Virus record (IMG/VR): IMGVR_UViG_3300032215_000092
Location: 1 to 55,778 of that record
Source of the DNA: a virus
Direction: 5' to 3' (one strand)
DNA length: 55,778 nt
Part shown: piece after piece, positions 1 to 55,326 of the stretch
Layout: every line of letters starts with the position of its first letter
Numbering within the stretch: position 1 is the first letter of the stretch
The notes under the pieces: generated by a model
The model's database searches: none
The model's input: only the letters and a program-made list of their open reading frames with translations
Told to the model about the DNA's origin: nothing
Position numbers and translations under genes: made by a program

Positions 1-95
1 CTGGCCGCTGGCTGGCCGCTGGCTGGCCGCTGGCTGGCCGCTGGCTGGCCGCTGGCTGGCCGCTGGCTGGCCGCTGGCTGGCCGCTGGCTGGCCG
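1..95. repeat. 11-bp tandem repeat array at left edge
   Basis: The unit CTGGCCGCTGG is repeated head to tail with no visible change: eight full copies plus a seven-base partial copy. The window begins inside the array, so the real copy number is unknown. It lies directly beside a perfect palindrome and about 200 bases upstream of the terminase genes. Tandem sites near terminase genes can serve as packaging recognition sites, but nothing here proves that. An assembly artefact at a contig end is an equally serious reading. Confidence 0.9.
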
Positions 96-108
96 TAAAA
101 GTTTTACG
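94..108. promoter_or_regulatory. Palindrome GTAAAA-G-TTTTAC, site 1
   Basis: The arms CGTAAAA and TTTTACG flank a central G, giving a perfect 7+1+7 inverted repeat. It directly follows the 11-bp tandem array. The same 13-base core recurs in early genes near 50154, 52980 and 55094, with near matches at 52276 and 54265. This is the only intergenic copy. Its role as a protein-binding site is inferred from the recurrence. Confidence 0.7.
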
Positions 109-35281: not shown

Positions 35282-38200
35282 AAATAGTAAATGTCCCCGG
35301 CGCGGGTCCGTTATCTTTCCCAGATTCGGAATCTGATGATTCAATCTATGCAAAAATTGCAAAGATTCAGGAACATTTAAAACAAGTTGATCTAGCGACT
35401 CGCCCGGACCCACGGGATATTCCTTTTAGTAGGGTTGCAAGTAACGCCTTCAACCGTACCGGCAGGGGGCTGGGGATCACGGCTTTCAACGAGCTACCGG
35501 CTCTTGGCGCATCTTTATTTGGTGAAGATGAAACCGCTGCTAGGTTGTTAGACGAAGGCATAGCTAAACGCCGAGCCCTTGAAGAAAAGTACCCAACGTC
35601 CCAAGCATCTTTTGAAGGTATTCGTGGGCTATCTGATACGGGTAAGTTTTTACTTGAGTCTGGCGTAGAAGCCGTACCAACTGTAGCTGCTATTGCGGGA
35701 ACCGGCGGCATCGGTGCTCTTGCTGGACGTGGGGCTGCTAAGTATGGGGTTGAGGCGGCACTTGCTCGTGCTGCGGCACAACGGGGTGTAGGTGTAGAGG
35801 CGGCTGAAGCAGCCGCCGCCGCTGCTAGATCTAAAGCTACTCAGACTGGTCTTGATGTGGGCCTTGGCGCGGGTAGCTTTGGTCTCAACGCGCCTGAAAC
35901 TTTTGCTGGCGTTTACGAAGAGACTGGCAAACTTGCGCCCGGAACTGCCATAGGTATTGGTGCGCTCAAAGCCGCACTGGACGGCGTTCTTCCAGCCCGA
36001 TTGTTAAATCAATTAGGAGCGCGTGGTCAAGCTAAATTAGCGGAAGAGATCGCCTCGCGATCCACCATCGTGCCGGATAGTTTTAAGTTACGGCTTGCTA
36101 AAGAAATTGGTAAGACTGCCGCCACCGAAGGGGTCACTGAAGGCGTTCAAGAAGCGTTGGACATCTTTGCGGAACAACTTTCTGGCGCTCCGGGTGGATT
36201 TTCCGATCCTAAGAATGTAGACCGGATGTTGTTGGCTGCTGCTAAAGGCGCAATTGGCGGTACGACTATTGGTGCTCCGGGCGCTCTGGTGCAAACCATG
36301 CGGGAGACTCCTGCGAAGCAACCGGAATATAGCCTCGACGAAACCAAGAAAGCTGACTCTGTTGGCCCCGGCCCTGCTGAGAATCTTGCAGCGGCCATGG
36401 CTAAGCTCAAGAGCACGGAAGGTATTACCGAAGATGAGTTCAACCTGCTCGTTGAAAACAAGGTACTCACCCCTGAATCAAGAGCTTCGGTAAAATTTGC
36501 CGCCCCCAGAACTGACCCAGCTCTAGAAGAACAAACCAACCAAGCTACTCTTGAGGACGCCGCGCAGGCCGACCAAGTAGCCCAAGCCGCCGCAGCGCAA
36601 GCTAGCCTTCAACAACAGCAGCAACAGAACCAACAGGCTCAACAGCAGCAAGAGCAAGCTCAGCAGCAGCAACAGCAGAACCAACAGCAGCAAGCTCAAG
36701 AAGCCGCTGACCTTCAAGCCAAACAACAGGCTGCTTCTGAAGCCGCCATGGCTCAGCGGGAAGCCGAAGCCCAAGACCGAGCCGCAGCAACGCAACAGGC
36801 CCAACAAAATGTCCAGCCAAACGCCCAACCTAACGTCCAAGCCGACGCAACACCTGCTCCAACTGTCAATCCCCCAAGTGGAGCAAGCACTGCTGTATCT
36901 AGCGAACCCGGAGCAGGGGTACCCCCCGCAGGAGTTGCAACATCTCCACCCCCTAGAGTGGCACCTGCTGAACAACCTTCTCAACAAGTTGGAGTGGGAG
37001 AAACAGCGCAACCCCATCCAGTAGCCAAGCCAAACCAGCCGTTCTACGATAACAGAAGAATCATGGTTGTCGCGGATGTAAATGGTACACGCGTGCCATT
37101 TTATCTAAGCACTGGCAGGGGGAATAAACAGACCGTTCCTTCGGGTAAGTGGTATCCGTTTTTTGGCTACGGTAAAGATGGCTGGATCAACAAGGGCACT
37201 GAAGAAGACATCAACAACTTCTATGGTAGTCCCGCACTAAAGGCCAAAGCTGAAGAACTAAACTCCACGTTGGGAGACATTCGCCACCTTGATCCCGCGA
37301 AAGGCGACTTGCCATTTGCTTGGGATGGGGTATCTCCGATTGCAGATTGGAGAAAATCAAACTCGTTAGTAGTTAATCCTAATGAAGGTTTTACTCCAGT
37401 AAATTACGACGACGTACATGAGCAAGGCAACAAAAGATATTGGGACAACATACTAGGCACGATCTCTAAAGTTGAAAGGGTTCCGCTTGAGGAAGCCGTA
37501 AACAAAGTAGAAAGTAAACTTGAATCTAAGCCAGCCCAAGTAACCGAAGAAGGAGCTTACGAACCCGTCAACGATCAGTTCTCCATTCCTAGGGAGGAGT
37601 TTGCTCGCGCGTTAGGTATAAAATCCCACGGTAAAACGTGGATGGCTACGGAGCACAACGCTGAATTGGAAAGCGCCGTCATAAAAGGCGACATGCCCGC
37701 AGTGATAAAGGCCCTGCTGGGCAGCAAGCACCCCGTGGTCAGAGACATTGCTCGACGTGCTCAAGCGATGGAGCGGTTCATACCTTCAGAGCGGGTAAAA
37801 GTTAAGCTCGACGATGGAAGGCTTCGTGAGCAAGAAGATTTTAAAGGGTATCCCCCCGGCTCTATTGCCGGGATGTTTGACAGCGGGCCAAACACGGTTT
37901 TTGTCAACCCCGTCTATGCGGGAAGTGAGCATACGATTGCCCACGAAATTGTCCATGCCCTGACGGAAAGAATAATCAAGACCCCTATTCCCGGCAGACA
38001 GCTTGAGGCGGTTAACCGCCTGAAGAAGTTGTACAAGGACGTACTTGCTAAAGCTGAAGCGGTCTACAAAACCAAGAACATCAAGGAACTTCCCTACGGG
38101 TTAAAGTCTCCATCAGAGTTTTTGGCTGAAGGACTTAGCAACCCTGAGTTCCAGTACCTCCTCGCTGCGCTGCCTCATGAAAGCAAGACTTCGTTGTGGA

Positions 38201-41200
38201 CTCAGTTTGTCCAAGCTATTGCCGATATGTTGGGCCTTAGAGATACTAGCGCACTGACGGAATTGCTAGATATCTACAGCGCAATGTTGCAAGAGGGTCC
38301 GCCCTCGCCTACCAAGACTGCCGCTGAATCTACAAAATCTTTTTTGATTGGCGTTCCTCCTCAGAACAACAACTACCCCCTAGCCGCTGACGATCTACCT
38401 GACAACGCCAAGGTCCCCCCTACGGTATCGACACCACCAGCCGCTACCCCACAACGGGGCGTAGATCTAGCGATGCAAGGGCCAGCTAATTCGTACCTTA
38501 AAGCTGCCACAGATAGCGAGCTTTACATTAATGCCATGGATCAAGTGGGGCGTTCAGCCCTGTCTTTGCAACCACTATGGTATATCGCTGATACCGCACG
38601 GAAGCTAGGCTTTAAGCAGATTGGCGCAATTGAGAATGCTCTGCGTAAAGCTGGGGCAATGAAGAACACCATACTCAAGAGTAGCTCGGACTTCATGACC
38701 AAGGCGCTGGCAATTGCCAAGTCTGACCCTGTAGGTAAAAAGGCGATGGATGCCTTTGTGAACCGCGCGTCTGACCTTGCAATTGACGTGACCCTTAGCA
38801 AGGACCCGTCCCCAGAATTTATCCAAGCTCGTCCTGACTCGGTTGCTGACTACATCTCCCTGCGTGCCGAATACGACAAGCTACATCCTAAGTTTCAGAA
38901 GCTAGCGTCGGACCTTGTTGACCAATACCGACAGTTTCGTAATGAGTATTTTACGGCACTGAAGCGGTCTATACACGATCAGTATCAGTACGACCCCATG
39001 AGGGCAGAAAAAATTCTGTCTGGGTTGGAAGAGAAGTACAAACAGTTTAACGAAGCCTACACGCCATTCGTCCGCATAGGGGACTACTGGATTACGTACT
39101 TCAACCCCAACAACGGCAAGCCTGTCGCTGAGTCCTACACCAGTCTGGGTGCTCAGAAGACACGCCTCGATGAGTTGAAGAAGGCTGGCATCGTTCACGC
39201 CCAGTCATTCAAACAGACGGATTTCAGGAAATTTAGTTACAAGAGCGGTCCCGTCAATCAGTTCTTTGATGAGATCAAAGGCGATGTGGATAAGGCACTG
39301 CCTATCTATAAGGATGACCCTGCTGAAACAGTTGACCGCATCCGCGAAGCTCGTGAAGATATGAAGGAGCGTCTGTATCAGGCGTCCCTGCTGCTACACC
39401 CAGAGTCCTCTATGTTGCGGCAGTTCGGTCTCAAGCGTAAAGGTACGGCGGGTTACATCGAGGACACCCTCGCTGCGTTTGATCATAAGGCTCCGATCTA
39501 CGCCAGTCAGATCTCCCAAGTTGCGTACAAGGGTCAGATCGAGCATGAGATCGACAGCGCTCGCAAACAGAACGCCAGCAACCCCGACACAAAGATGAGT
39601 GACATCATCACGCACGTCGCCAAAATCGTCTATGGGGTAGACACAATCCGCGCAGATGATCCTCTGAATCAGATTGCCAACAACGTGAACCGGTTGGGCT
39701 TCACGTTCTACATGGGCTTCAACCCTGCATCGGCTCTCGTAAACTTATTGCAGACACCCACCGTTATGTTCCCGCTGCTGGCTGGCGAGTTTCACAAGCT
39801 GGGTCAAAGCAAGATCATGAACACTTTGTTTGGTTCCCTGACCAAAGTCATAGGTGGTTCGGTAGGTGAGCAGACGTACGGCGAGAAGTTGGTTGAGTCT
39901 GCGGAAGCTAAGATTGACGCCGCTGTTGCCAAGGGTAAGACTCGTGCGGAAGCTATTGCGGCCCTACCCGAGATGGAGCGCGTGTTCCTCTCGTTCCGTG
40001 ATCAAGGCATCCTCAATGCCGGTGACCCCAGCCATGACTTCGGTTCTGTAACTAAGCATGGATCGGGTGAAACTTCCGCGTTTGGTAAAGGTACTCGTGC
40101 CTTCACTAAATACTCCGCGATCATGTTCCAGCGGGCTGAAGCCATCAACCGTGAAGCCGGTGCACTTGCAACCTACCAACTGATGAAGCAGCGGTTGAGC
40201 GGAAAGGGGGACATGAGCAGCCAAGAGAAGTACGCCGAAGCAATCCGCAAGGCTACTGATATGGTCACAAGAGCGCATGGAGACTACCAACATGGTCTGG
40301 CTCCTAAAATCTTTTTGAGCCCGACGATGCGCGTCATCTTAATGTTCAAGAAATTCCCCGCTCACATGGCTGCGCTTTATGTGCGTCTCTTTAAAGATAT
40401 GTTTAGCAAGGCGGACCCTGAAGTTCGCAAGGTAGCGCGTATCCAGTTCGCTGGTCTGATGGGAATGTCCGGTCTCTTTGCCGGGACCATGGGTATGCCG
40501 TTCTACTACATCATCAGGGACATGATGAACCTCATGCTTGATGATGAAGATGACCCGTACGACTTCGACTTCGCCTTCTACAACTATCTGTCTGATATGT
40601 GGGGCCAGCCCATGGCTAACCGAATCACTCGTGGTTGGCTGGGTGATCTTGGCGGGGATGTTGCTAGTAAGGTTGGGTACGCAAGTTCTCCCCTTTTGGG
40701 AGGCACCAAGCAACTGCCATTTATTGGCGGCCTCTTGGGGCTACGTGACGGTAAGAACACTGCGTCTGCTGAAGATGATTTGAAGAACTACGTTGCCGAG
40801 GCAGCGGGTGCTTCTGCTGGTATGGCCCTACAGATTGCACGGGGTGTAGACAAGCTGGCTCAAGGCGACGTGTATCGGTTCTTGGAAGGCGTTACCCCCA
40901 TGGCTGGGCTACGCAACATCACCAAGGCCATCCGACTGAGCAAAGAGGGTGCGCTGACAACTCGCGGCGAGCCGATCATCGAAGACGTGTCCTTAACAGA
41001 GACCGCGCTTCAGGCAGTGGGCTTTACCCCACAGCGTTTGGCTGGTCAGTACCAACTCAACGCTTGGCAAAAAGATATGGAGAAACAGATTCTTGATCGT
41101 AGACAAGGCTTGATCAATCAAAAATTCAACGCCCGCGCGAAACGGGACTACGACACGGAATCTGATATCAACGATGAGATCAGCAAGTTCAACATGTTGA

Positions 41201-41352
41201 ACCCCGAGAAGGGTTTGCGGATTACTTCTGAGACGCTTGCCGCCTCGGCCCGCACCCGTGCCAAGCAGAGCAAGGAAACCAAGGCCGGTATCTACCTCTC
41301 CAAGCCATTCCGTCAGCGTTTTGCCGAAGTGCCGGTATACGCAGAGGAATAA
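35278..41352 (+). CDS. Giant internal virion protein with zincin motif (2024 aa)
   Basis: The N-terminus 'VPGAGPLSFPDSESDDSIYA' resembles a short phage virion-protein tag. Then come small-residue hydrophobic helices (about 125-165), a Gln-rich linker (440-517), an unassigned domain from 585 ('NRRIMVVADVNGTRVPFYLS'), and 'HTIAHEIVHAL' with HEIVH at 889-893, a zinc-metalloprotease motif. 'PSEFLAEGLSN' downstream may supply the third ligand. From about 1467, 'LGFTFYMGFNPASALVNLLQ' recalls the LPD38 domain of giant phage polyvalent proteins, followed by membrane-like helices near 1723. It is probably ejected into the host and may cut wall or membrane proteins. Last gene of the late operon. Confidence 0.78.
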   Translation: MKIVNVPGAGPLSFPDSESDDSIYAKIAKIQEHLKQVDLATRPDPRDIPFSRVASNAFNRTGRGLGITAFNELPALGASLFGEDETAARLLDEGIAKRRALEEKYPTSQASFEGIRGLSDTGKFLLESGVEAVPTVAAIAGTGGIGALAGRGAAKYGVEAALARAAAQRGVGVEAAEAAAAAARSKATQTGLDVGLGAGSFGLNAPETFAGVYEETGKLAPGTAIGIGALKAALDGVLPARLLNQLGARGQAKLAEEIASRSTIVPDSFKLRLAKEIGKTAATEGVTEGVQEALDIFAEQLSGAPGGFSDPKNVDRMLLAAAKGAIGGTTIGAPGALVQTMRETPAKQPEYSLDETKKADSVGPGPAENLAAAMAKLKSTEGITEDEFNLLVENKVLTPESRASVKFAAPRTDPALEEQTNQATLEDAAQADQVAQAAAAQASLQQQQQQNQQAQQQQEQAQQQQQQNQQQQAQEAADLQAKQQAASEAAMAQREAEAQDRAAATQQAQQNVQPNAQPNVQADATPAPTVNPPSGASTAVSSEPGAGVPPAGVATSPPPRVAPAEQPSQQVGVGETAQPHPVAKPNQPFYDNRRIMVVADVNGTRVPFYLSTGRGNKQTVPSGKWYPFFGYGKDGWINKGTEEDINNFYGSPALKAKAEELNSTLGDIRHLDPAKGDLPFAWDGVSPIADWRKSNSLVVNPNEGFTPVNYDDVHEQGNKRYWDNILGTISKVERVPLEEAVNKVESKLESKPAQVTEEGAYEPVNDQFSIPREEFARALGIKSHGKTWMATEHNAELESAVIKGDMPAVIKALLGSKHPVVRDIARRAQAMERFIPSERVKVKLDDGRLREQEDFKGYPPGSIAGMFDSGPNTVFVNPVYAGSEHTIAHEIVHALTERIIKTPIPGRQLEAVNRLKKLYKDVLAKAEAVYKTKNIKELPYGLKSPSEFLAEGLSNPEFQYLLAALPHESKTSLWTQFVQAIADMLGLRDTSALTELLDIYSAMLQEGPPSPTKTAAESTKSFLIGVPPQNNNYPLAADDLPDNAKVPPTVSTPPAATPQRGVDLAMQGPANSYLKAATDSELYINAMDQVGRSALSLQPLWYIADTARKLGFKQIGAIENALRKAGAMKNTILKSSSDFMTKALAIAKSDPVGKKAMDAFVNRASDLAIDVTLSKDPSPEFIQARPDSVADYISLRAEYDKLHPKFQKLASDLVDQYRQFRNEYFTALKRSIHDQYQYDPMRAEKILSGLEEKYKQFNEAYTPFVRIGDYWITYFNPNNGKPVAESYTSLGAQKTRLDELKKAGIVHAQSFKQTDFRKFSYKSGPVNQFFDEIKGDVDKALPIYKDDPAETVDRIREAREDMKERLYQASLLLHPESSMLRQFGLKRKGTAGYIEDTLAAFDHKAPIYASQISQVAYKGQIEHEIDSARKQNASNPDTKMSDIITHVAKIVYGVDTIRADDPLNQIANNVNRLGFTFYMGFNPASALVNLLQTPTVMFPLLAGEFHKLGQSKIMNTLFGSLTKVIGGSVGEQTYGEKLVESAEAKIDAAVAKGKTRAEAIAALPEMERVFLSFRDQGILNAGDPSHDFGSVTKHGSGETSAFGKGTRAFTKYSAIMFQRAEAINREAGALATYQLMKQRLSGKGDMSSQEKYAEAIRKATDMVTRAHGDYQHGLAPKIFLSPTMRVILMFKKFPAHMAALYVRLFKDMFSKADPEVRKVARIQFAGLMGMSGLFAGTMGMPFYYIIRDMMNLMLDDEDDPYDFDFAFYNYLSDMWGQPMANRITRGWLGDLGGDVASKVGYASSPLLGGTKQLPFIGGLLGLRDGKNTASAEDDLKNYVAEAAGASAGMALQIARGVDKLAQGDVYRFLEGVTPMAGLRNITKAIRLSKEGALTTRGEPIIEDVSLTETALQAVGFTPQRLAGQYQLNAWQKDMEKQILDRRQGLINQKFNARAKRDYDTESDINDEISKFNMLNPEKGLRITSETLAASARTRAKQSKETKAGIYLSKPFRQRFAEVPVYAEE

Positions 41353-44260: not shown

Positions 44261-44503
44261 TCACCACTCGATATTGTGGAAGTCTGATATTAGTTCTTGA
44301 ATCCTCGGTAAGTGAAGGTTCTTGTTAGGAAGCGTCCGTCCTGTAAACCACATATAGACAGTCATGCGGGACACTTTGAGATGACGGGCAACTTTAGCGG
44401 CGGGGATGTCACGATCAACACAGAGCAAGCCAAGTCTCACACCCAATTTTTCGGGGTCAGCTTTCTTGACTTGATCTACAAATTTTATGCTGTAGCCAAG
44501 CAT
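44261..44503 (-). CDS. Small helix-turn-helix protein (80 aa)
   Basis: The segment 'IPAAKVARHLKVSRMTVYMW' (about residues 34-53) is a helix-turn-helix of the XRE/Cro type, followed by 'FTGRTLPNKNLHLPRIQELI'. The small size fits a Cro-like regulator or a replication accessory protein. ATG at 44503 has AAGGA at good spacing. A longer form from 44533 would run into the palindrome. The 25-bp palindrome at 44521-44545 is just upstream, so autoregulation is plausible. It is coupled to the primase gene. Confidence 0.8.
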   Translation of the reverse strand: MLGYSIKFVDQVKKADPEKLGVRLGLLCVDRDIPAAKVARHLKVSRMTVYMWFTGRTLPNKNLHLPRIQELISDFHNIEW

Positions 44504-44520
44504 GATGGTCCTTGAAGGGG

Positions 44521-44545
44521 AGATGTAAAGCAATGCTTTACATCT
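44521..44545. promoter_or_regulatory. 25-bp perfect palindrome upstream of HTH gene
   Basis: Arms AGATGTAAAGCA and TGCTTTACATCT surround a single central A, 12+1+12 with no mismatch. It occupies the gap between the genes at 44555-44857 and 44261-44503. No T-run follows on either strand, so an operator is likelier than a terminator. The half site ATGTAAAGC resembles half of the recurring GTAAAA-N-TTTTAC element. Confidence 0.8.
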
Positions 44546-48063: not shown

Positions 48064-48744
48064 TTAGTTTCTTCCGTTGTGTGGGCAGATCGCCACTGGG
48101 CAATATTTATGGCAGGTGAAGTTAGGCTTGGGGTTCCACACATCGTTAGCGTAGGCTTCCTTTAGTGGGACGTAGCTATCCCGAGTCTCCTGCATAAGCC
48201 GAGCCACGGAAGATTCTCTATGGTACTTGCGTTTCACCAACTCGTTGGCTACTACGAAGATCAGCGCGGCCTTGATGACCCTGACGCCGGGGAAGTGTGC
48301 GAACGTAGCTAGAGCAAGCAAGTCTAACTGTACGGTGTCCGCGTAGCGGGAAGTCTTTCCCGTCTTGTAGTCAATTACTCTGGAGAGTTCTCCGTTGACT
48401 ACGATCAAATCTGCTATGCCCCGCCACCACACTTCGGGGTCATGGAATGTGCAGGGCGTGCCGTCTTCACGCAACCCCATCTTATACTCTGCGTGCTTGT
48501 CACCCTCGTACGCATCAATATTGTTCATGTACCCCTCCATGTATTTATACTGGGGAGGGATAGGTTTTTTCTTAGTGATGTAGTCTTCGGCGGCTTTGTG
48601 TACGGCACTGCCGTATAGCAACGCTTCAGTCTCTTTGTCCTTGAAGTCCTTCTGAACCTTCAGGTGGTAATACTTTTTGGGGCACTGCTTGAATAGCGAC
48701 ATCCCGCTGTATGACCACGAGATGGGTTTCTCAAGAATCTGCAT
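48064..48744 (-). CDS. Cas4/RecB-like PD-(D/E)XK exonuclease
   Basis: The active-site set is complete: 'GSAVHKA' (His49), 'WRGIADLIV' (Asp112) and 'VIDYKTGKTS' (Asp125, Lys127), followed by 'TVQLDLLAL' (the QhxxY-type region). Cys21 plus Cys211, Cys215 and Cys220 (TCHKYCPVAICPH) match the four-Cys iron-sulfur pattern of Cas4, AddB and Dna2 nucleases. It likely acts as an exonuclease in recombination-dependent replication. No Cas1 or CRISPR array is present, so it is not an adaptation gene here. It overlaps the polymerase end by 14 bases. Confidence 0.88.
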   Translation of the reverse strand: MQILEKPISWSYSGMSLFKQCPKKYYHLKVQKDFKDKETEALLYGSAVHKAAEDYITKKKPIPPQYKYMEGYMNNIDAYEGDKHAEYKMGLREDGTPCTFHDPEVWWRGIADLIVVNGELSRVIDYKTGKTSRYADTVQLDLLALATFAHFPGVRVIKAALIFVVANELVKRKYHRESSVARLMQETRDSYVPLKEAYANDVWNPKPNFTCHKYCPVAICPHNGRN

Positions 48745-50566
48745 AAGTTGGGCCGCATCCTATTTCGCAATCTACGGGTAATCCATTAGCCCACTTAGGA
48801 ACCCAGCGCATACATTCCTGAACATACGCCATCGCCTCGATAGACTCCTGCTCTGGAACAATTATAGACACTGCATCATGTACTGTCAAGGCCGGACGGT
48901 ACTTCTTAGCGATCCTCAGCATTTGCTCACCCACAATGATCCGGGCAAGGGCTTGAACCACGTTCTCCACCAGCTTACCACCGTAGAGTTTCACGTTCTT
49001 CTCACGCAACGTGCTGTACATCCAGCCATCGTAAGGACTGGATCTGAGGTCGTCGTACTCAATCTTCATGGTGTTGGGCAGGATGACGTACTTGTTCCCT
49101 ACCTCCAGCAAGTCGCCCCTACCGAACGTCCAGCCCGTGGAGGTAGCCATATAATGTATGGCTCTGTCAGCAACTCTCCACAGATTCACAATCTTGGGAT
49201 TGACGCCCCGGTACACTTGAATAATGCGCTCGGCCTCGGCCATGGTGATCTTTGTCTCTTGTTTGAGAGACAACATGTGATGAAACTTGTCGTGCCCCAT
49301 GCCGTACCCGCACCCGAGGATCACGGTCTTACCAAAAAATCTTTGCTCCTTGGTGATTTTGGTGACCGGTGTTTGGTAGATCTTAGATGCCATGATCTTG
49401 TAGACATCCTCGCCGTTAGCGAAGGAGGTCACCAAGTCATTCTGATTAGCCAGCCACGCGAGGGTCCGCGCCTCGATCTGCGAGGAGTCGCACGAGATGA
49501 TGACGTGCCCTGCCGGTGCGCGGAGAGACTTCTTTAGGGCGGAAGCGTTACCCCTACTAGGTAGGTTCTGCATATTAAGTTTGTCAGACCCACCCCATCT
49601 GCCGGTGTGAGCTGCGTAGTATTTAAGAGGGACTGGCAGTAGGCCCCGCTTGCCTATGCCAATGAACCGCTCGGTGCGAGACTCCTCGATAGTCGTCTTG
49701 ACCCCAAGCCGCGCAGCCACCACCGCTTGCACCCGCAGGTCAGGATGCTCAAGAAGATCCTGCAAACCTTGGTCTGTCTTGGCAAAGGCGTAGGTCACCT
49801 TGCCGGTAGTGGGGGATATTTTGGTAGGCGGCACAATACCAAGTAGGCACAGTATCTGTGCAAACTTCGGGTTGCTCATCACGTCCTCAAGGTTTATGTC
49901 GGCGTCCTTGAGTAGCTTCGCCTTGTTCTCCCGCACTTTGATGAGGTGGTCTTCCAGCAACGGCACGTCCACCTCAAGAGTCGGCTCGGTAAACATACGG
50001 ATCGTGAGGTCGATCAGCTTGAGTTCTTTTAGAGGGAACTCCTCAAACGTAAAGTCCTCGTTGGCACGGAAGGTGTACATCCGTGTATATAACCCAGCGG
50101 TAAGATCCACATCGTTTCGGCAGTACGACATGTACCGCTCCATCTCCATATGTGTAAAACTTTTACGTGTTTTACCCAATGCGTTAATTACCTCGTCCCC
50201 TTTTGTACCTATCTTGAACCACGTGGCTAGGTGAGCTAGTCCGACCCTGCACCGCGTCCCCAATAACGCTTGAGCCATCGACATAGTGTCAGCCCAAGCC
50301 TTCGGGTAAATCTCAAAGTGCCACGCCATAATTGCCGCATCAAAAAGCGCATTGTGAGCACAGGCGAGGGAATTCCCCCAATCGAACTGTTGTAGCCAAT
50401 CCTTCGTCTCGGCACGCGTACCAGAGAAGCTCTGCGTTTCCTCATCGTCCACTTTAACCGCCACGCCGATGACTTCAAACCTTGGGTCACGTATGTACTC
50501 CTCAGTAGACATTTTGGAGAGACTGAAGTCTCGGTCGTAGTAGGTTTCAAAATCTATTGTTATCAA
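48731..50566 (-). CDS. DNA polymerase, family A with 3'-5' exonuclease
   Basis: The exonuclease has Asp5/Glu7 ('ITIDFETYYD'), Asp76 ('HNALFDAA') and 'YCRND' (Asp152). Polymerase motif A is 'CDSSQIEART' (Asp360), motif B 'RFFGKTVILGCGYGMG', and motif C 'LTVHDAVSII' with Asp564. Two residues stand out: Leu417 at the position of E. coli Pol I Phe762, and Ala565 in place of Glu in the HDE motif. The start is TTG 50566 (TTGA overlap with the upstream stop, AGGGAG before it). A longer ATG form would overlap the upstream gene by 67 bases. It is the replicative enzyme with the AEP primase-helicase. Confidence 0.93.
   Translation of the reverse strand: MITIDFETYYDRDFSLSKMSTEEYIRDPRFEVIGVAVKVDDEETQSFSGTRAETKDWLQQFDWGNSLACAHNALFDAAIMAWHFEIYPKAWADTMSMAQALLGTRCRVGLAHLATWFKIGTKGDEVINALGKTRKSFTHMEMERYMSYCRNDVDLTAGLYTRMYTFRANEDFTFEEFPLKELKLIDLTIRMFTEPTLEVDVPLLEDHLIKVRENKAKLLKDADINLEDVMSNPKFAQILCLLGIVPPTKISPTTGKVTYAFAKTDQGLQDLLEHPDLRVQAVVAARLGVKTTIEESRTERFIGIGKRGLLPVPLKYYAAHTGRWGGSDKLNMQNLPSRGNASALKKSLRAPAGHVIISCDSSQIEARTLAWLANQNDLVTSFANGEDVYKIMASKIYQTPVTKITKEQRFFGKTVILGCGYGMGHDKFHHMLSLKQETKITMAEAERIIQVYRGVNPKIVNLWRVADRAIHYMATSTGWTFGRGDLLEVGNKYVILPNTMKIEYDDLRSSPYDGWMYSTLREKNVKLYGGKLVENVVQALARIIVGEQMLRIAKKYRPALTVHDAVSIIVPEQESIEAMAYVQECMRWVPKWANGLPVDCEIGCGPTYADS
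50154..50166. promoter_or_regulatory. Palindrome GTAAAA-C-TTTTAC, site 2
   Basis: A perfect 6+1+6 copy of the recurring element inside the DNA polymerase exonuclease region, where it encodes Arg-Lys-Ser-Phe-Thr on the leftward strand. Function as a binding site is inferred from recurrence only. Confidence 0.6.
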
Positions 50567-50826
50567 GTGTTCTTCTCCCTGAGTTTGGCTTCGATTGCTT
50601 TGGCGTAATCCTCTTCCCATCCAACGCAACTATTAAATCCAATTACTTTGCTAGTAATTGCACTTAACTCCTCATCCGTCAGCCCGACCCACTCGCGTTT
50701 TTGTTCTTTTAACGCAATGTTTTTCTTCATCAACAAGTTAATTGTTTCAATCTGCGAATGCATTGATGCGTGGCACCTCTCCACTTCATATCGCAGGAAG
50801 TCAACTTCGTGTGTGTATTGGTTCAT
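50563..50826 (-). CDS. Small protein with WVGLT-EE and AKLREKNT modules (87 aa)
   Basis: A helical first half ('VDFLRYEVERCHASMHSQIE') leads to 'EWVGLTDEELSAITSKVIGF', 'CVGWEEDYAKAIEA' and a final 'KLREKNT'. The last half repeats the plan of the gene upstream (PWVGLTKEEAKEI, ALEARLKEKNT). I recall this WVGLT-EE and KLKEKN pairing in many small phage proteins. Function unknown. It ends over the TTG start of the polymerase, so it may influence polymerase translation. Confidence 0.75.
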   Translation of the reverse strand: MNQYTHEVDFLRYEVERCHASMHSQIETINLLMKKNIALKEQKREWVGLTDEELSAITSKVIGFNSCVGWEEDYAKAIEAKLREKNT

Positions 50827-51059
50827 GTGTTCTTCTCCTTCAGCCTCGCCTCAAGCGCGGCTATCATGTCTATGACATACGGTCGATTCGCAAGGCTGAT
50901 TTCTTTAGCCTCTTCTTTAGTTAGTCCAACCCACGGTTTCTTTACATGCGCGGCGACAAGGGCCGCAAAGCTATCAAGATATGGGTCAAACCAATTTAAG
51001 TCCCACGATCCGGGAATTTCCGCCTCCCGCGCCATGCGGATGATGTCTTCTTTGTTCAT
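50823..51059 (-). CDS. Small protein, paralogue of its neighbour (78 aa)
   Basis: Starts 'MNKEDIIRMAREAEIPGSWD', continues with 'FAALVAAHVKKPWVGLTKEE' and ends 'ALEARLKEKNT'. The start 'EDIIRMAREA' is another block seen in small unknown phage proteins. The C-terminal half is shared with the next gene, pointing to module shuffling or duplication. It is ATGA-coupled to both neighbours. No enzymatic motif seen. Confidence 0.75.
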   Translation of the reverse strand: MNKEDIIRMAREAEIPGSWDLNWFDPYLDSFAALVAAHVKKPWVGLTKEEAKEISLANRPYVIDMIAALEARLKEKNT

Positions 51060-51202
51060 ATTAGTGCGTCCGGTACGTTAGATATATCCAGCTTTGGTTT
51101 GCGCTGGCGTTTAATTTTCTCAACCACGTGCGGGTATGGCGGGGGATGCCATACCCACCGGATTACCTTGCCTTCATCGTCAAGGATTCCGTATCTCTTC
51201 AT
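51056..51202 (-). CDS. Short conserved-looking protein (48 aa)
   Basis: A 48-codon gene fills the gap between the genes at 51180 and 51059. It starts 22 bases inside the end of the upstream gene and ends with an ATGA overlap onto the next start. The product 'MKRYGILDDEGKVIRWVWHP' continues with a Pro-rich turn and a basic 'EKIKRQRKPKLDIS'. The alternation of charged and aromatic residues looks like a small folded beta unit. The ribosome site is weak, so coupling by re-initiation is likely. I recall similar short phage proteins, function unknown. Confidence 0.7.
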   Translation of the reverse strand: MKRYGILDDEGKVIRWVWHPPPYPHVVEKIKRQRKPKLDISNVPDALI

Positions 51203-51542
51203 TCGGATCTACCATAGCTTCAAAAAGCGCCGACTGCACGTTGTATGATAAATCTTCTAGCTGATCATGGCGTAGAACTTCAAACTCCACGTTGCCCCTA
51301 GTTCTTAGACACATTTCATTCTCAGCATCGGCCCATACTTTTTTCCAGCCTTCATTCCAATCGGTCATGTCGTACCAGCCAAGATAAGCCGACACTCCTT
51401 CATCCCTTCCAATCATGTAAAACCGAACCTTGCCGTTTTTGTTTGGTATTCCGTTCATGTGTTTTTCCCTTTCATCTAAACATTTCTGCCAAGTTTCGTT
51501 AACCCAATCCTTCATCTCAGCGCGAGATATTGGCTTGCTCAT
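51180..51542 (-). CDS. Hypothetical early protein (120 aa)
   Basis: Start ATG 51542 overlaps the upstream stop (ATGA). It begins 'MSKPISRAEMKDWVNETWQK' and contains 'VRFYMIGRDEGVSAYLGWYD' and 'MCLRTRGNVEFEVLRHDQLE'. Mixed alpha/beta, acidic. No known family. It belongs to the run of small early proteins that often take over host functions in phages, but nothing specific is visible. Confidence 0.7.
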   Translation of the reverse strand: MSKPISRAEMKDWVNETWQKCLDEREKHMNGIPNKNGKVRFYMIGRDEGVSAYLGWYDMTDWNEGWKKVWADAENEMCLRTRGNVEFEVLRHDQLEDLSYNVQSALFEAMVDPNEEIRNP

Positions 51543-51769
51543 GTGTCCACCCACGTTCCGTCAAGCCACTCATCAAGCATTGTGTGAAGCTTCGCTCGTT
51601 GCCGTTCTCCAACCGTCCGACCATCGTCGGTTACAAGGTCACTCGCAACAAATTGTTTAATGTCACCTTGCCCAGAGAATGCAATGTAATTGTCTGTTGT
51701 CTTAATGATAAGTGAACCAATGGGTTTTGATGCACCGTTCACCAATGCGACGCTTTTTTCTTTATTCAC
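51539..51769 (-). CDS. Hypothetical early protein (76 aa)
   Basis: GTG 51769 overlaps the previous stop as GTGA, the same coupling used by its neighbours. GTG 51772 is an alternative. The sequence has a beta-rich 'SLIIKTTDNYIAFSGQGDIK' and a helical end 'RAKLHTMLDEWLDGTW'. No domain recognised. Confidence 0.68.
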   Translation of the reverse strand: MNKEKSVALVNGASKPIGSLIIKTTDNYIAFSGQGDIKQFVASDLVTDDGRTVGERQRAKLHTMLDEWLDGTWVDT

Positions 51770-51993
51770 CACCCAGCCTCCTTCTGCACTTCTCTAAGTT
51801 TCTGCTTGTAGTGCAAGCATTTGCCCGCGTCGTTAGAATCTTTTAGTCCTTGACGCATGGCGTACTTAATGATGTTGCCTTTTAGGAACCCTATAAATTC
51901 CTCGGTACTCAGCACGGTTTCTATAACATCCCATGGCGGGATGCCCATCTCTTTGTAGTGATCACCATCAATTTGAAAATCATCTGCTTTCAT
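51766..51993 (-). CDS. DUF3310-family protein (75 aa)
   Basis: The product shows the family pattern nearly end to end: 'QIDGDHYKEMGIPPWDVIET', then 'GFLKGNIIKYAMRQGLKDSN' and 'DAGKCLHYKQKL'. DUF3310 proteins occur widely in phages, often near nucleotide or DNA metabolism genes, with no firmly known activity. ATG 51993 overlaps the upstream stop by four bases. Complete length for the family. Confidence 0.9.
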   Translation of the reverse strand: MKADDFQIDGDHYKEMGIPPWDVIETVLSTEEFIGFLKGNIIKYAMRQGLKDSNDAGKCLHYKQKLREVQKEAGW

Positions 51994-52235
51994 TTTTTAT
52001 CCCTAGACATCTGACCAGCCAAAAACGCTGCTTTGTATGCTCCGTCGTTGGTATTAGCCCGCAGCAATTGTTCTTTGAGGTACTTAATCTCAACCTGAGA
52101 TTGTCTATCTGCCGTATCCCACCCTGCCGTAAACGCATCATGCGCGTGTCCTTCCATCGGATGGTATCCACCCATCGGAATGTTCTGCCCGTGAGTTTCT
52201 GTCCACCATTTGCGCCACGCTTCACCTTTAGTCAC
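51990..52235 (-). CDS. Hypothetical early protein (81 aa)
   Basis: GTG start at 52235 with GAGGA upstream, overlapping the previous stop. It includes 'AWRKWWTETHGQNIPMGGYH', 'AHDAFTAGWDTADRQ' and a coil 'VEIKYLKEQLLRANTNDGAY'. The 'AFTAGW-A' pattern followed by a coiled coil is common among small uncharacterised phage proteins. Function unknown. Confidence 0.7.
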   Translation of the reverse strand: MTKGEAWRKWWTETHGQNIPMGGYHPMEGHAHDAFTAGWDTADRQSQVEIKYLKEQLLRANTNDGAYKAAFLAGQMSRDKK

Positions 52236-52513
52236 GATAATTTTCCTCGTATTAATTTAGTCCAAGACATTGCCCGTAAAGCTTTTACATCTTCAGCGGA
52301 TCGTCGCCCAACAAACTCACCCTGAACCGTTTTGAAAGTAGTTTGTGGGTAAGCGCACCTATTTTGCTCAGCCATCTTGTCCCTGTATTCAGGGGTACAG
52401 TCTTCGCAGTATGAGTGAGCCGGTGATGGGTGAGCCCCCCTCGCAGCTATGACCCATAATTTGAATTCTTTATAGTCGTTGAAACAGCGCGGCGTTTCAG
52501 GTTTTTCTTTCAT
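52232..52513 (-). CDS. Hypothetical Cys-containing early protein (93 aa)
   Basis: 'YCEDCTPEYRDKMAEQNRCA' contains a CxxC pair and a further Cys, a possible small zinc site. The N-terminal 'RCFNDYKEFKLWVIAARG' and C-terminal 'VKALRAMSWTKLIRG' are helical. The VKALR codons contain a near-perfect copy of the recurring palindrome. ATGA overlap with the gene upstream. No family known to me. Confidence 0.7.
   Translation of the reverse strand: MKEKPETPRCFNDYKEFKLWVIAARGAHPSPAHSYCEDCTPEYRDKMAEQNRCAYPQTTFKTVQGEFVGRRSAEDVKALRAMSWTKLIRGKLS
52276..52288. promoter_or_regulatory. Palindrome variant GTAAAG-C-TTTTAC, site 6
   Basis: One mismatch from the perfect element. On the leftward strand it reads GTAAAAGCTTTAC and encodes Val-Lys-Ala-Leu-Arg within the gene at 52232-52513. 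Confidence 0.5.
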
Positions 52514-52734
52514 GAGAACCTGATCTTGCTAATCCAATCATTGACGGGATTTTGCGGAGCAATCTTTTCATACTTCATCACTGCCCCAAGAGACTGCAAT
52601 TCTCCTAAAGTTTTATATTCACCGCCGTAAGTTGCCCAGCATTTATTAAACTTTACATGTGGTGTGTACATGGCATTACCCAAGTAAAAGCATGGTTGTA
52701 GGGTGCGTGCGTATAGGTCTTTTGGTTTGGTCAT
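52510..52734 (-). CDS. Hypothetical early protein (74 aa)
   Basis: A 74-residue protein with 'LQPCFYLGNAMYTPHVKFNK' and 'WATYGGEYKTLGELQSLGAV', aromatic and likely a small beta fold. Starts two bases after the upstream stop. It has no recognised domain. Its place in the coupled run of tiny early genes is the only context. Confidence 0.68.
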   Translation of the reverse strand: MTKPKDLYARTLQPCFYLGNAMYTPHVKFNKCWATYGGEYKTLGELQSLGAVMKYEKIAPQNPVNDWISKIRFS

Positions 52735-52736
52735 TT

Positions 52737-52958
52737 TTAGGCTCTCGGAACTGGCGATGTTTGGGCTTTGGCGCGAGCGTCCTCAATCCGAATCTCGTCC
52801 CACTGCGCGATCAGGATCGCGGCATGTAGATCAAGAAGTTCGGCAAGCATCTGCTTGACTAGCCCCTCGGCGTGGTAAATACGATTTTCATTGAGCGTAT
52901 CTTTTAGGGCAATCGCCATGTGCTCAATGTTAATCAGGGGTTCACTCCAATCCTTCAA
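52737..52958 (-). CDS. Hypothetical helical early protein (73 aa)
   Basis: Nearly all-helical: 'INIEHMAIALKDTLNENRIY' and 'LVKQMLAELLDLHAAILIAQ'. It overlaps the VRR-NUC gene by 17 bases. The pattern of long amphipathic helices suggests a dimer or a partner-binding protein. No family known to me. Confidence 0.68.
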   Translation of the reverse strand: MKDWSEPLINIEHMAIALKDTLNENRIYHAEGLVKQMLAELLDLHAAILIAQWDEIRIEDARAKAQTSPVPRA

Positions 52959-53235
52959 AGCTACTCTCCAGTTGTTCGCGTAAAACTTTTACGCTGTTCA
53001 CACAAAAAGAAAGGCCACCCGCAGAACGGATGGCCTTCAAGTTTTTCTCCTGTAGTGCGGTAGGCTGGTTGTTGCCAGCCTTGCACTCGATACCTACAAA
53101 GTTCCCATACACACACGCAACTATGTCAGGTACGCCCGAGCGACCGTAGCCGCCCGTGACGGGGAAGAAATAGTATGCGCCTAGTTCATCAAGGTAGGCT
53201 GTTACCTCCTTCTTTACTTTCCCTTCCGGTGTCAA
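52942..53235 (-). CDS. VRR-NUC nuclease (97 aa)
   Basis: A stand-alone VRR-NUC domain of the PD-(D/E)XK superfamily: 'RSGVPDIVACVYG' (Asp37), 'FVGIECKAG' (Glu50, Lys52) and 'QEKNLKAIRSAGG' (Gln62). Such phage nucleases resolve branched DNA or nick structured substrates. The start is TTG 53235 with AGGAG six bases upstream, inside the end of the preceding gene. The C-terminal codons carry the longest copy of the recurring palindrome. Confidence 0.92.
   Translation of the reverse strand: MTPEGKVKKEVTAYLDELGAYYFFPVTGGYGRSGVPDIVACVYGNFVGIECKAGNNQPTALQEKNLKAIRSAGGLSFCVNSVKVLREQLESSFEGLE
52978..52994. promoter_or_regulatory. Palindrome GCGTAAAA-C-TTTTACGC, site 3
   Basis: The longest copy of the recurring element, with 8-base arms around one central base (17 bp). 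It lies within the VRR-NUC gene, encoding Ser-Val-Lys-Val-Leu-Arg on the leftward strand, 20 bases before the start of the next gene. An operator role is inferred. Confidence 0.65.
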
Positions 53236-54175
53236 GCAATTCTCCTAAGTCTTCACCGATGAAGCCATAGCGCGTAAGCCAATCGCAATCAGCCTCGTGC
53301 CGAAACCCCACCATCTTTGCCTCATCCCCTGTGCCCAATTGCAACAGAGCGAGCTTACTTTGTACCACGTCAGGTAGCGCGTCGATACTAGGGAAATCCC
53401 TAATTGTGCGATCAACCTTGTCCGTGGTTCCGGTGCCCCCGGTGAACGTCCGATGGTGTGTGATCATGCGGTACAAGGATTCTCCGCCCGGCGGGAGTTC
53501 TTGAAGAGTTACCCAAAGATCTCTTAGAAGCGCTTGCTCCATGCGCTGATCCTGCACCTTGTCGTACGCGGCAAGGTACTTATGGATCTCTTGTTGATCC
53601 GCGCCCGTAGTCTCGCCGCGCATCATCCTAGACACCATATCGTAGCTACTGTTGTAGTAGAGCCCCTGCATAAACTCAGTCAGAACCAGATCCTCTATCG
53701 GCGCAGACTTGCTTACTATCCTGTTGAAATTAGATTCAGTCGCGTGGGCTTGCGCCTCGGCATACGCCTCAGGAGTTTTGTAGTCCAGAAGTTCTACCAG
53801 CTTTTCCGCCTTGGGCCTAGTGCTTGAGCGCTTAACATCTGAGGGAGACTTCTTGTTCCTGATCCTGCGACTCGACACCTCTGCCTGTAGCGTGTCGCGC
53901 ACCATGCCACTAGGTCTGAACACACCAAACGTACCAATGTGCATACCTGCTTGCATCACCGGAATTGTCTTGTTAGGGCGTACCTCAAAGTAGATCGCGG
54001 GGTCTGTGTACGTCACACGCATGGCGTCGATCAACCAGATCAACGGTTGATGGAAAACCCTGTCGTTCCAGATGTCAGCACCGGCCACCTCTTCGATAAT
54101 CTCTTGAGTCCCTACCTTGCGGAGCGTGGTAAGGGTGAAATAGTGGTGGCGTTTGCCTTTGTGAAGTATGGTCAT
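53189..54175 (-). CDS. Hypothetical early protein (328 aa)
   Basis: An uncharacterised protein with a beta-rich N-terminus ('HYFTLTTLRKVGTQEIIEEV', 'HIGTFGVFRPSGMVRD') and a helical C-terminal two thirds ('YDMVSRMMRGETTGADQQEI'), including a Gly-rich turn 'TFTGGTGTTD'. Strong AGGAG upstream of the ATG. It sits between the 294-residue protein and VRR-NUC. No family known to me. A role with the VWA protein is possible from context. Confidence 0.75.
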   Translation of the reverse strand: MTILHKGKRHHYFTLTTLRKVGTQEIIEEVAGADIWNDRVFHQPLIWLIDAMRVTYTDPAIYFEVRPNKTIPVMQAGMHIGTFGVFRPSGMVRDTLQAEVSSRRIRNKKSPSDVKRSSTRPKAEKLVELLDYKTPEAYAEAQAHATESNFNRIVSKSAPIEDLVLTEFMQGLYYNSSYDMVSRMMRGETTGADQQEIHKYLAAYDKVQDQRMEQALLRDLWVTLQELPPGGESLYRMITHHRTFTGGTGTTDKVDRTIRDFPSIDALPDVVQSKLALLQLGTGDEAKMVGFRHEADCDWLTRYGFIGEDLGELLDTGRESKEGGNSLP

Positions 54176-54193
54176 GATCTCTATCTCCTAAAA

Positions 54194-55078
54194 TTAAAAT
54201 GCAAACTTACTCAAGATGTCTTCGACTTGTGTACGTACATCGAAGCGTACTGCTTTCGAGTCCCGTAAATCTTTTACAGAAACACCGGCAAGGGCGGCGG
54301 CAAGACCAGCACGGGCTCCCTCCAACTTGGTGTCGTTGGTGATGTTCATACTGTCGAGCGTGTCGATCAACTCGTTAGCCTTCTCGATCATGGAGGCATG
54401 GAACACCTTGCGGTCACCCTCCTCCCCGTCAGTCAGTCGGTCAACCAGATGCTTGAGCACGTCATGCAGTCGTGACCATGCGTCACCCATAGCCGCGCCC
54501 ACCTGCTTGTCATATAGCTGACGGTAGTGCTCGTTGAGTTCGTCACGGATCTGCATCTCACAGTCAACACGAAAGTCGCCCGTCTCCGGCACGGGCCAGA
54601 AGCTGACCTCCATGTAAAACTTTCTCTCAATATGCTCAACCTCTGGGTACTCGTTGCGGTCAAACATACCGCCAAGTTGGAACGCGGCGGCAGACACCAT
54701 GGTTGGGTAGCAGACCACTAGCTCCTTCTTCAGATCGTTGTACTTGGCGATCCAAGAATCAGCCTCTGCCTTGTAGTCGAAGAACCGCTTCATGGGTAGC
54801 AAGCGTGGGCCGGTGTCTGCCCATGGCAGGGTGAGGTGGTAGTGCCGGTTGCGCGTGTTAGCTACAAACTTGTTGATCAGATCAAGCTGATGTGCACCTG
54901 CCAGTAAGTTCTTATGGTAGTTACCGGCACGTCCTTGCGTGTTGTTCTGCTTGTCTACGTCCTCGCTCACTTTGCGGTCTAGCTTGCGAGCGGTCCAGTT
55001 GCCTACGCTGAGGTTGACCAGCATGGCGCTGGATGCGATGGATGGACCGAAGGTTGGGGTCGTGATAGTTGAAGTCAT
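54194..55078 (-). CDS. Hypothetical protein next to VWA gene (294 aa)
   Basis: Mainly helical, with 'AMLVNLSVGNWTARKLDRKV' near the start, 'YHLTLPWADTGPRLLPMKRF' and a C-terminal region around 'HDVLKHLVDRLTDGEEGDRK'. This resembles the DUF3150-type proteins I recall beside MoxR-like ATPase and VWA genes in phages, but the match is from memory. If so, it would be a third member of an AAA/VWA module. ATGA overlap with the gene upstream. It contains palindrome variant site 5. Confidence 0.65.
   Translation of the reverse strand: MTSTITTPTFGPSIASSAMLVNLSVGNWTARKLDRKVSEDVDKQNNTQGRAGNYHKNLLAGAHQLDLINKFVANTRNRHYHLTLPWADTGPRLLPMKRFFDYKAEADSWIAKYNDLKKELVVCYPTMVSAAAFQLGGMFDRNEYPEVEHIERKFYMEVSFWPVPETGDFRVDCEMQIRDELNEHYRQLYDKQVGAAMGDAWSRLHDVLKHLVDRLTDGEEGDRKVFHASMIEKANELIDTLDSMNITNDTKLEGARAGLAAALAGVSVKDLRDSKAVRFDVRTQVEDILSKFAF
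54265..54277. promoter_or_regulatory. Palindrome variant GTAAAT-C-TTTTAC, site 5
   Basis: One mismatch from the perfect element. On the leftward strand it reads GTAAAAGATTTAC and encodes Val-Lys-Asp-Leu-Arg, in the same codon phase as sites 3 and 6. Confidence 0.5.
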
Positions 55079-55326
55079 GATGTGCTCTCGTCTGTAAAAG
55101 TTTTACGTAAGATTGATTTAAGTATTGCTGAGTTGCTGTCGTCGTGCCCCGTGACACGGAGCAGAGCCACCTCGTCGATGTACTCTGCCTCGATGCCAGA
55201 CAGGGCAAGTAGTGCCATAAGTTCTTCTCGTGTGTGCTCTCCTACATATTCACTGATTGACCGTACGGGGGCTTCCACCCCTTGTTCTGAGTCACTACCC
55301 AGAGTGTTGGCGCGAGACCTGTCCAT
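55075..55326 (-). CDS. Hypothetical early protein (83 aa)
   Basis: ATG 55326 has a good GAGGAAG site, which supports the gene despite an 85-base overlap with the end of the VWA gene. The product contains 'YVGEHTREELMALLALSGIE' and 'DSNSAILKSILRKTFTDE', acidic and mixed helix/strand. Unknown function. The last codons include palindrome site 4, and the stop overlaps the next ATG. Confidence 0.72.
   Translation of the reverse strand: MDRSRANTLGSDSEQGVEAPVRSISEYVGEHTREELMALLALSGIEAEYIDEVALLRVTGHDDSNSAILKSILRKTFTDESTS
55094..55106. promoter_or_regulatory. Palindrome GTAAAA-G-TTTTAC, site 4
   Basis: A perfect 6+1+6 copy near the end of the gene at 55075-55326, encoding Arg-Lys-Thr-Phe-Thr on the leftward strand, 16 bases before the start codon of the next gene. 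This is close enough to affect its transcription or translation. Confidence 0.6.

Follow-up and report, generated by a model that had tools for sequence, protein, structure and literature searches.

In the 55,778-bp virus record IMGVR_UViG_3300032215_000092 of IMG/VR, whose whole length is hereafter called the window, a short perfect palindrome, GTAAAANTTTTAC, recurs through the early region. This palindrome and its counterparts in related phages probably serve, as far as their sequence and placement tell, as stoperator-like roadblocks for a dimeric DNA-binding protein encoded by the phage in its first early gene, and each palindrome code is private to one phage group within a large freshwater phage family. 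The window holds four perfect copies and two copies with one mismatch (Table 1), for all six of which the original prediction had given the right positions and sequences. When up to two mismatches are allowed, the count rises to 11, against a mean of 2.8 and a maximum of 7 in shuffles. Within the early open reading frames (ORFs) as modelled, three perfect and two one-mismatch copies are observed, a number far above that of a codon-aware shuffle using synonymous codons (n = 2000; mean of 0.014 perfect copies, maximum of 1). Of the five copies earlier described as genic, the one at 55094 calls for a correction, since its 83-aa ORF is doubtful and its orthologous site is mostly intergenic in relatives.

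Judging from codon usage in the DNA polymerase gene, the palindromes are selected as DNA, as had first been proposed. Over 100 relatives have R-x-D-F-[ST], or a close version of it, at the polymerase site and spell it with mixed codons, whereas all members of the palindrome group share the single codon string given in Table 1, with Ser in place of Asp, while the codons on either side vary. Since codon choice is fixed over just the stretch of the palindrome, at the expense of the usual Asp, a conserved peptide is excluded as the cause of the repeats. Besides, the sites recur in close relatives, defined as contigs with an 80-93% identical polymerase or 294-aa protein, and do so in the early region only: 11-14 copies, of which 11-12 are perfect, are present in each relative where coverage of this region suffices, at about one per kb, and in a relative of 61,337 bp all 12 copies fall between 44.1 and 57.9 kb, the rest of the sequence being free of them. 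Most copies of this GTAAAA group precede a ribosome-binding site, in the pattern GTAAAACTTTTAC-acagagaggaaatc-ATG, and a start codon is found 10-25 nt from the site for 71% of copies, compared to 16% of random positions. The association between Shine-Dalgarno sequence and site is strong in the GTAAAA group (80% vs 29%) and weak in the other groups when pooled. In the window, sites 52980 and 52276 stand at gene 3' ends, immediately ahead of the ribosome-binding site of the next gene, the latter being without counterpart among the copies found in close relatives. Immediately ahead of site 52980, the Hjc-like nuclease gene contains a terminator-like 13-bp stem with a T-run (53010-53038, minus strand).

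In distant relatives, comparable positions are taken by other repeated palindromes, among them TTCATACnGTATGAA, TTCGTACnGTACGAA, TTCCCACnGTGGGAA, TTCATATnATATGAA, TACTGTCnGACAGTA, TCGGGACnGTCCCGA, TCTAGACnnGTCTAGA, CTGTAAnnTTACAG and CTAACAnTGTTAG. Counting only loci with at least five copies, 39 distinct palindromes are separated by inner arm and spacer class, some of them being related variants, with 5-21 copies per genome. Five genomes of 60-65 kb, each with a palindrome of its own, keep all their sites within 5-14 kb of the early region. All are inverted repeats around a centre of 1-2 nt, sometimes longer, in which the central base can be any of the four, and perfection is the rule, as three groups illustrate (94/94, 44/44 and 125/130 perfect sites). 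The pooled site profile shows only A/T at -10/+10, lengthening the palindrome; no fixed promoter element around the sites appears in it, and the link to promoters surfaced only once promoters had been located first. Between phages with different codes, orthologous sites share their flanks and differ in their arms. The 14.7-kb locus L113 is, on the evidence of its mixed sites, a natural recombinant between two palindrome types: its first gene and five left sites belong to the TTCCCAC type, and of its two sites on the right, downstream of these, one is a leftover TTCATAT and the other a decayed TTCATAC.

The placement of the sites relative to promoters was evaluated by locating strong sigma70-type promoters on the early strand blind to the sites, with one locus for each of the 39 palindrome groups. 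A site is centred at +5 to +120 in 67 of 108 such promoters, where 12.3 would be expected; a single promoter has a site overlapping its core, 17 have one upstream, and promoters followed by a site occur in 32 of the 39 groups. In the pooled set, a downstream site accompanies 226 of 324 promoters (44.6 expected), the distances peaking at +30 to +60, compared to 10 of 82 for the opposite strand. The sites typically lie 30-90 bp downstream of promoter start points and ahead of ribosome-binding sites, as exemplified in L086, a member of the window's group, by two promoters matching the consensus at 12 of 12 positions, with sites at +62 and +63. The parallel with stoperators drawn in the original prediction is supported by this arrangement, the sites being downstream of promoters and not on them. 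The first gene departs from this order, in that the site lies upstream of its promoter (-49 in L086, -51 in L087 and L088, -60 in L101, -48 in L144). A recurring unit of site, promoter, first gene and terminator can be recognized, often with a second site at or in the terminator: the first gene closes with a strong terminator, which often has a site immediately ahead of it; in the CTAACA group, the site falls within the hairpin. Non-coding direct repeats, accompanied by palindromes, were also noticed 3' of the first gene (L104:6530-6800, L144:8280-8460, L150:4510-4650; e.g. acctgtatccttgacgcgtgcca and accagtgactt...cagcg).

The first gene encodes a product of 150-320 aa, and at least six sequence families occupy this slot, between which profile comparison detects no homology. 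The best-sampled of them, FAM180, has no conserved stretches in a profile alignment scan. Its 172-aa model is all-helical, with a helix pair resembling a helix-turn-helix (HTH) where the predicted local distance difference test (pLDDT) score is about 90; the model has no PDB match at E <= 1e-3 and nothing significant in Foldseek, and neither FAM180 nor the first gene of the GTAAAA group has a match in 50,697 phage records. On a backbone tree built from three proteins, at least eight palindrome switches are seen, and the HTH-like region of FAM180 follows the palindrome: TTCCCAC goes with V/N/YLSL/DWG in 9/9 cases and TTCGTAC with V/T/YLPT in 9/9. Independent pairs on well-supported branches are concordant in 6/6 cases, the residues having been chosen after the alignment was viewed and the independent events being few (3+3), so that this covariation is supportive and not a blind test. 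A less biased check, made over 28 early families of the same phages, FAM180 itself included, indicates that identity in the HTH-like region is a better predictor of a shared palindrome than is the whole-protein identity of 26 of the 28.

In the GTAAAA group, the first gene encodes a helical protein of 233 aa, present in three relatives (L086:2405-3106 and its orthologues). This product would be the candidate binder of the window's group, an assignment made by gene position only, because the contig stops short of the first gene and no homology to the better-sampled families is detectable. The original prediction had rather pointed to an 80-residue HTH protein encoded in the window. This small protein, of 80-90 residues, is kept in more than 40 relatives, and its recognition helix, V[ST]R.T[IV]Y.WF, is near-constant across groups with different palindromes or with none detected, which argues that it is probably not the binder.

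Taken together, these data lead to a model in which the first-gene protein would bind the palindrome as a dimer and, once bound, would form a roadblock to RNA polymerase in the manner of a stoperator. As its amount rises, the protein would silence every early operon but its own, whose promoter stays free since the site lies upstream of it. No Phage_integrase, Resolvase, ParA (AAA_31) or ParB_N domain is found in 29 records of 55-74 kb, which suggests that the phages are non-lysogenic. A scan of genome-collection contigs recovers relatives in only three contigs from metagenome-assembled genomes, two of them labelled betaproteobacterial, and no prophage in any isolate. Because no prophage state is evident, the role proposed for the circuit is the shut-off of early genes together with the exclusion of co-infecting relatives, and escape from silencing by such relatives may be what drives the change of code. 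A broader and more tentative picture, which we regard as possible but not as the likelier outcome, is that of non-lysogenic freshwater phages with an immunity-like circuit, where a fast-evolving first-gene protein acts as infection timer and exclusion factor, where escape drives concerted switching of gene and sites, and where dozens of mutually blind immunity types have arisen with unrelated protein families in one slot.

Several points weigh against the roadblock model. The sites are much less degenerate than typical operators, and the absence of detected lysogeny genes in the 29 relatives removes the classical reason for a repressor. The promoters are consensus matches, some sites, such as that in the polymerase gene, are far from any promoter, and three TTCCGT-type groups have no promoter with a downstream site. 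For the first-gene proteins, Pfam gives no match at cut-off, and neither PHROG nor structure comparison gives a convincing one; that of the GTAAAA group is, in addition, not detectably homologous to the other families and its model is poor (pLDDT 61). The choice of covariation residues and the small number of independent events, described above, count on the same side. The TTCCGT-type group (L196, L202, L205) is also distinguished by longer gapped palindromes, by a 317-aa first gene with an alanine-rich middle and by strong promoters without nearby sites.

The first-gene protein could also bind the sites and act positively, as a lambda-Q-like DNA-binding antiterminator that loads onto RNA polymerase close to the promoter, or as an activator, turning the early genes on. 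The location of sites just downstream of promoters and beside terminators would agree with it, as would the strong promoter of the first gene, expected of an activator, and the site upstream of that promoter at about -48 to -109. However, there is little need for activation at early promoters that already come so close to the consensus (up to 12 of 12), the site distances spread over about +30 to +120, some sites are in genes and far from promoters (50154), and a template-bound dimer should form a block instead of loading; we consider such positive action unlikely. Somewhat less probable still is that the sites organize or mark the phage DNA, for centromere-like partition, as an origin, or for packaging or genome entry. 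Many perfect palindromes within 5-14 kb, some of them within genes, and a conservation unlike that of ordinary operators speak in its favour, but the placement relative to promoters and leaders is strong and specific, and the early region alone carries the sites. The packaging or general replication role envisaged in the original prediction is not supported, no site being found in the late region, and a partition site of the ParB/parS kind was rejected, as neither ParA nor a ParB-N domain was found in the 29 relatives.

A role in RNA, where the palindromes would form leader hairpins targeted by a translational repressor or an RNase, is very improbable. Of the sites downstream of promoters, most fall in 5' leaders and many directly precede ribosome-binding sites, and the site upstream of the first-gene promoter would be absent from its mRNA, as this explanation would have it. 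Nevertheless, the window site has no stable fold (0 kcal/mol alone, -0.9 with flanks; -1.1 for CTAACA), wobble accounts for 5 of 96 one-mismatch sites, the other 91 being non-wobble, the symmetry reaches the centre, which a loop does not need, and the conserved copy GTAAAAGATTTAC has an A-A mismatch. There is hardly more than a slight chance that the sites are captured host transcription-factor sites, as was also suggested at first: short palindromes with a 1-2 nt centre do resemble ordinary bacterial operators, but near-identical phages such as L113 and L118, with about 1% divergence in backbone proteins, differ in palindrome, and 39 or so specificities would have to be accounted for. Finally, the idea that an N4-like virion RNA polymerase uses the sites as hairpin promoters can be dismissed almost entirely: the family has N4-like MoxR/VWA genes and its 2024-aa virion protein matches the virion RNA polymerase family over a short stretch, but this match covers about 170 residues late in the profile (positions 2081-2254), no polymerase core was recognized, no N4 polymerase structure was matched, the centre base is free, the site sequence tracks the first gene, and the sites are downstream of sigma70 promoters. 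In the window, this virion protein is encoded at 35278-41352 and also has LPD39 and DarB-like matches.

The copy at 95-107 had been regarded as a left-end site of its own. The left end of the window instead matches L086:2010-2324 on the minus strand (blastn, 72% over about 320 bp), which aligns this copy with the leftmost early-region site of L086. In relatives, this leftmost site (L086:2312, L087:81, L088:3524) is just upstream, in minus-strand direction, of the promoter of the first early gene, TTGACA-17-GATAAT, and both that promoter and the gene fall outside the window. Because of this alignment, the contig is considered, on sequence comparison, to be broken at its left-end site, with about 7 kb of early region missing between its two ends; the right end stops inside the VWA gene. 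A tandem 11-bp unit (ctggctggccg) occupies positions 1-94, where relatives hold the promoter of the first gene, and may be an assembly artefact. Near the left-end site and in the opposite direction, a strong promoter-like TTGACA-18-TAATAT (207-236) precedes the terminase genes.

Table 1. Palindrome copies and genes of the window that are discussed in the text.
Feature	Position	Strand	Comment
Perfect palindrome GTAAAAGTTTTAC	95..107	.	Orthologue of leftmost early-region site
Perfect palindrome within DNA polymerase gene	50154..50166	.	Minus-strand codons CGT AAA AGT TTT ACA
One-mismatch copy GTAAAAGCTTTAC (minus strand)	52276..52288	.	3' end of ORF 52232-52513, ahead of next ORF start
Perfect palindrome, 3' end of Hjc-like nuclease gene	52980..52992	.	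About 20 nt ahead of next start; kept in L085, L086, L087, L088
One-mismatch copy GTAAAAGATTTAC (minus strand)	54265..54277	.	Near 3' end of 294-aa gene; identical in L085, L086, L087, L088
Perfect palindrome in 5' leader	55094..55106	.	16 nt ahead of ATG of 294-aa gene; in every relative covering the position
HTH protein named as binder in the original prediction	44261..44533	-	Judged unlikely binder
DNA polymerase gene, internal site	48731..50596	-	
Hjc-like nuclease gene, site at 3' end	52942..53235	-	
Conserved 294-aa early gene, function unknown, site in leader; marker gene of the phage family	54194..55078	-	
VWA (DUF2201) gene, 3' part, cut by contig end	55242..55778	-	

Immunity groups with private repressor-operator codes are a textbook trait of temperate phages. 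The same private-code pattern is encountered here, more diverse and more regular, in an uncultivated family without detected lysogeny genes and with a clear promoter logic. It opens the way to test how one regulator and about ten dispersed sites change specificity together, it supplies candidate orthogonal protein-site pairs by the dozen, and it leads to the prediction that lytic phages exclude their relatives through transcriptional roadblocks.

Among known systems, the C1 protein of phage P1 is one repressor acting at many operators scattered over the genome. The P1 operators are asymmetric and overlap promoters, and P1 is temperate, whereas the present sites are palindromes lying mostly off promoter cores. 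In the Nostoc cyanophages A-1 and N-1, repeated motifs between ORFs were suggested by the authors to be stoperators (PMC4916379); these motifs are asymmetric and neither a binder nor a relation to promoters was shown for them, in contrast to the palindromes described here and their promoter relation. In SPbeta, the repeated intergenic element SPBRE is bound at many places by one phage repressor, MrpR/YopR (PMC10516654). MrpR has a tyrosine-recombinase fold and serves the prophage, while the first-gene proteins are smaller and the FAM180 model has no fold match.

The closest comparison is with cluster A mycobacteriophages such as L5 and Bxb1, where many short repressor sites, mostly off promoters, stop elongation and where each subgroup has its own site and matching repressor (PMC6550527, PMC9283540); in L5-type phages, the stoperators keep the prophage silent (PMC6550527). 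Both systems share the use of a short site that is repeated many times and placed for the most part away from promoter cores (67/108 downstream and 1 on the core in the present family), and the covariation of repressor with site, seen here for the putative repressor FAM180 over at least eight switches. They differ in that L5-type sites are 13-bp and asymmetric, mostly in one orientation and variable within a genome, while the present ones are perfect palindromes that are hardly ever degenerate, and in that L5-type phages are temperate whereas integrase and partition genes were not found in the 29 records analysed here. Finally, unlike in L5, the sites of this family typically lie +30 to +90 from promoters, follow about 39 codes, and are accompanied by first-gene proteins of no known family.

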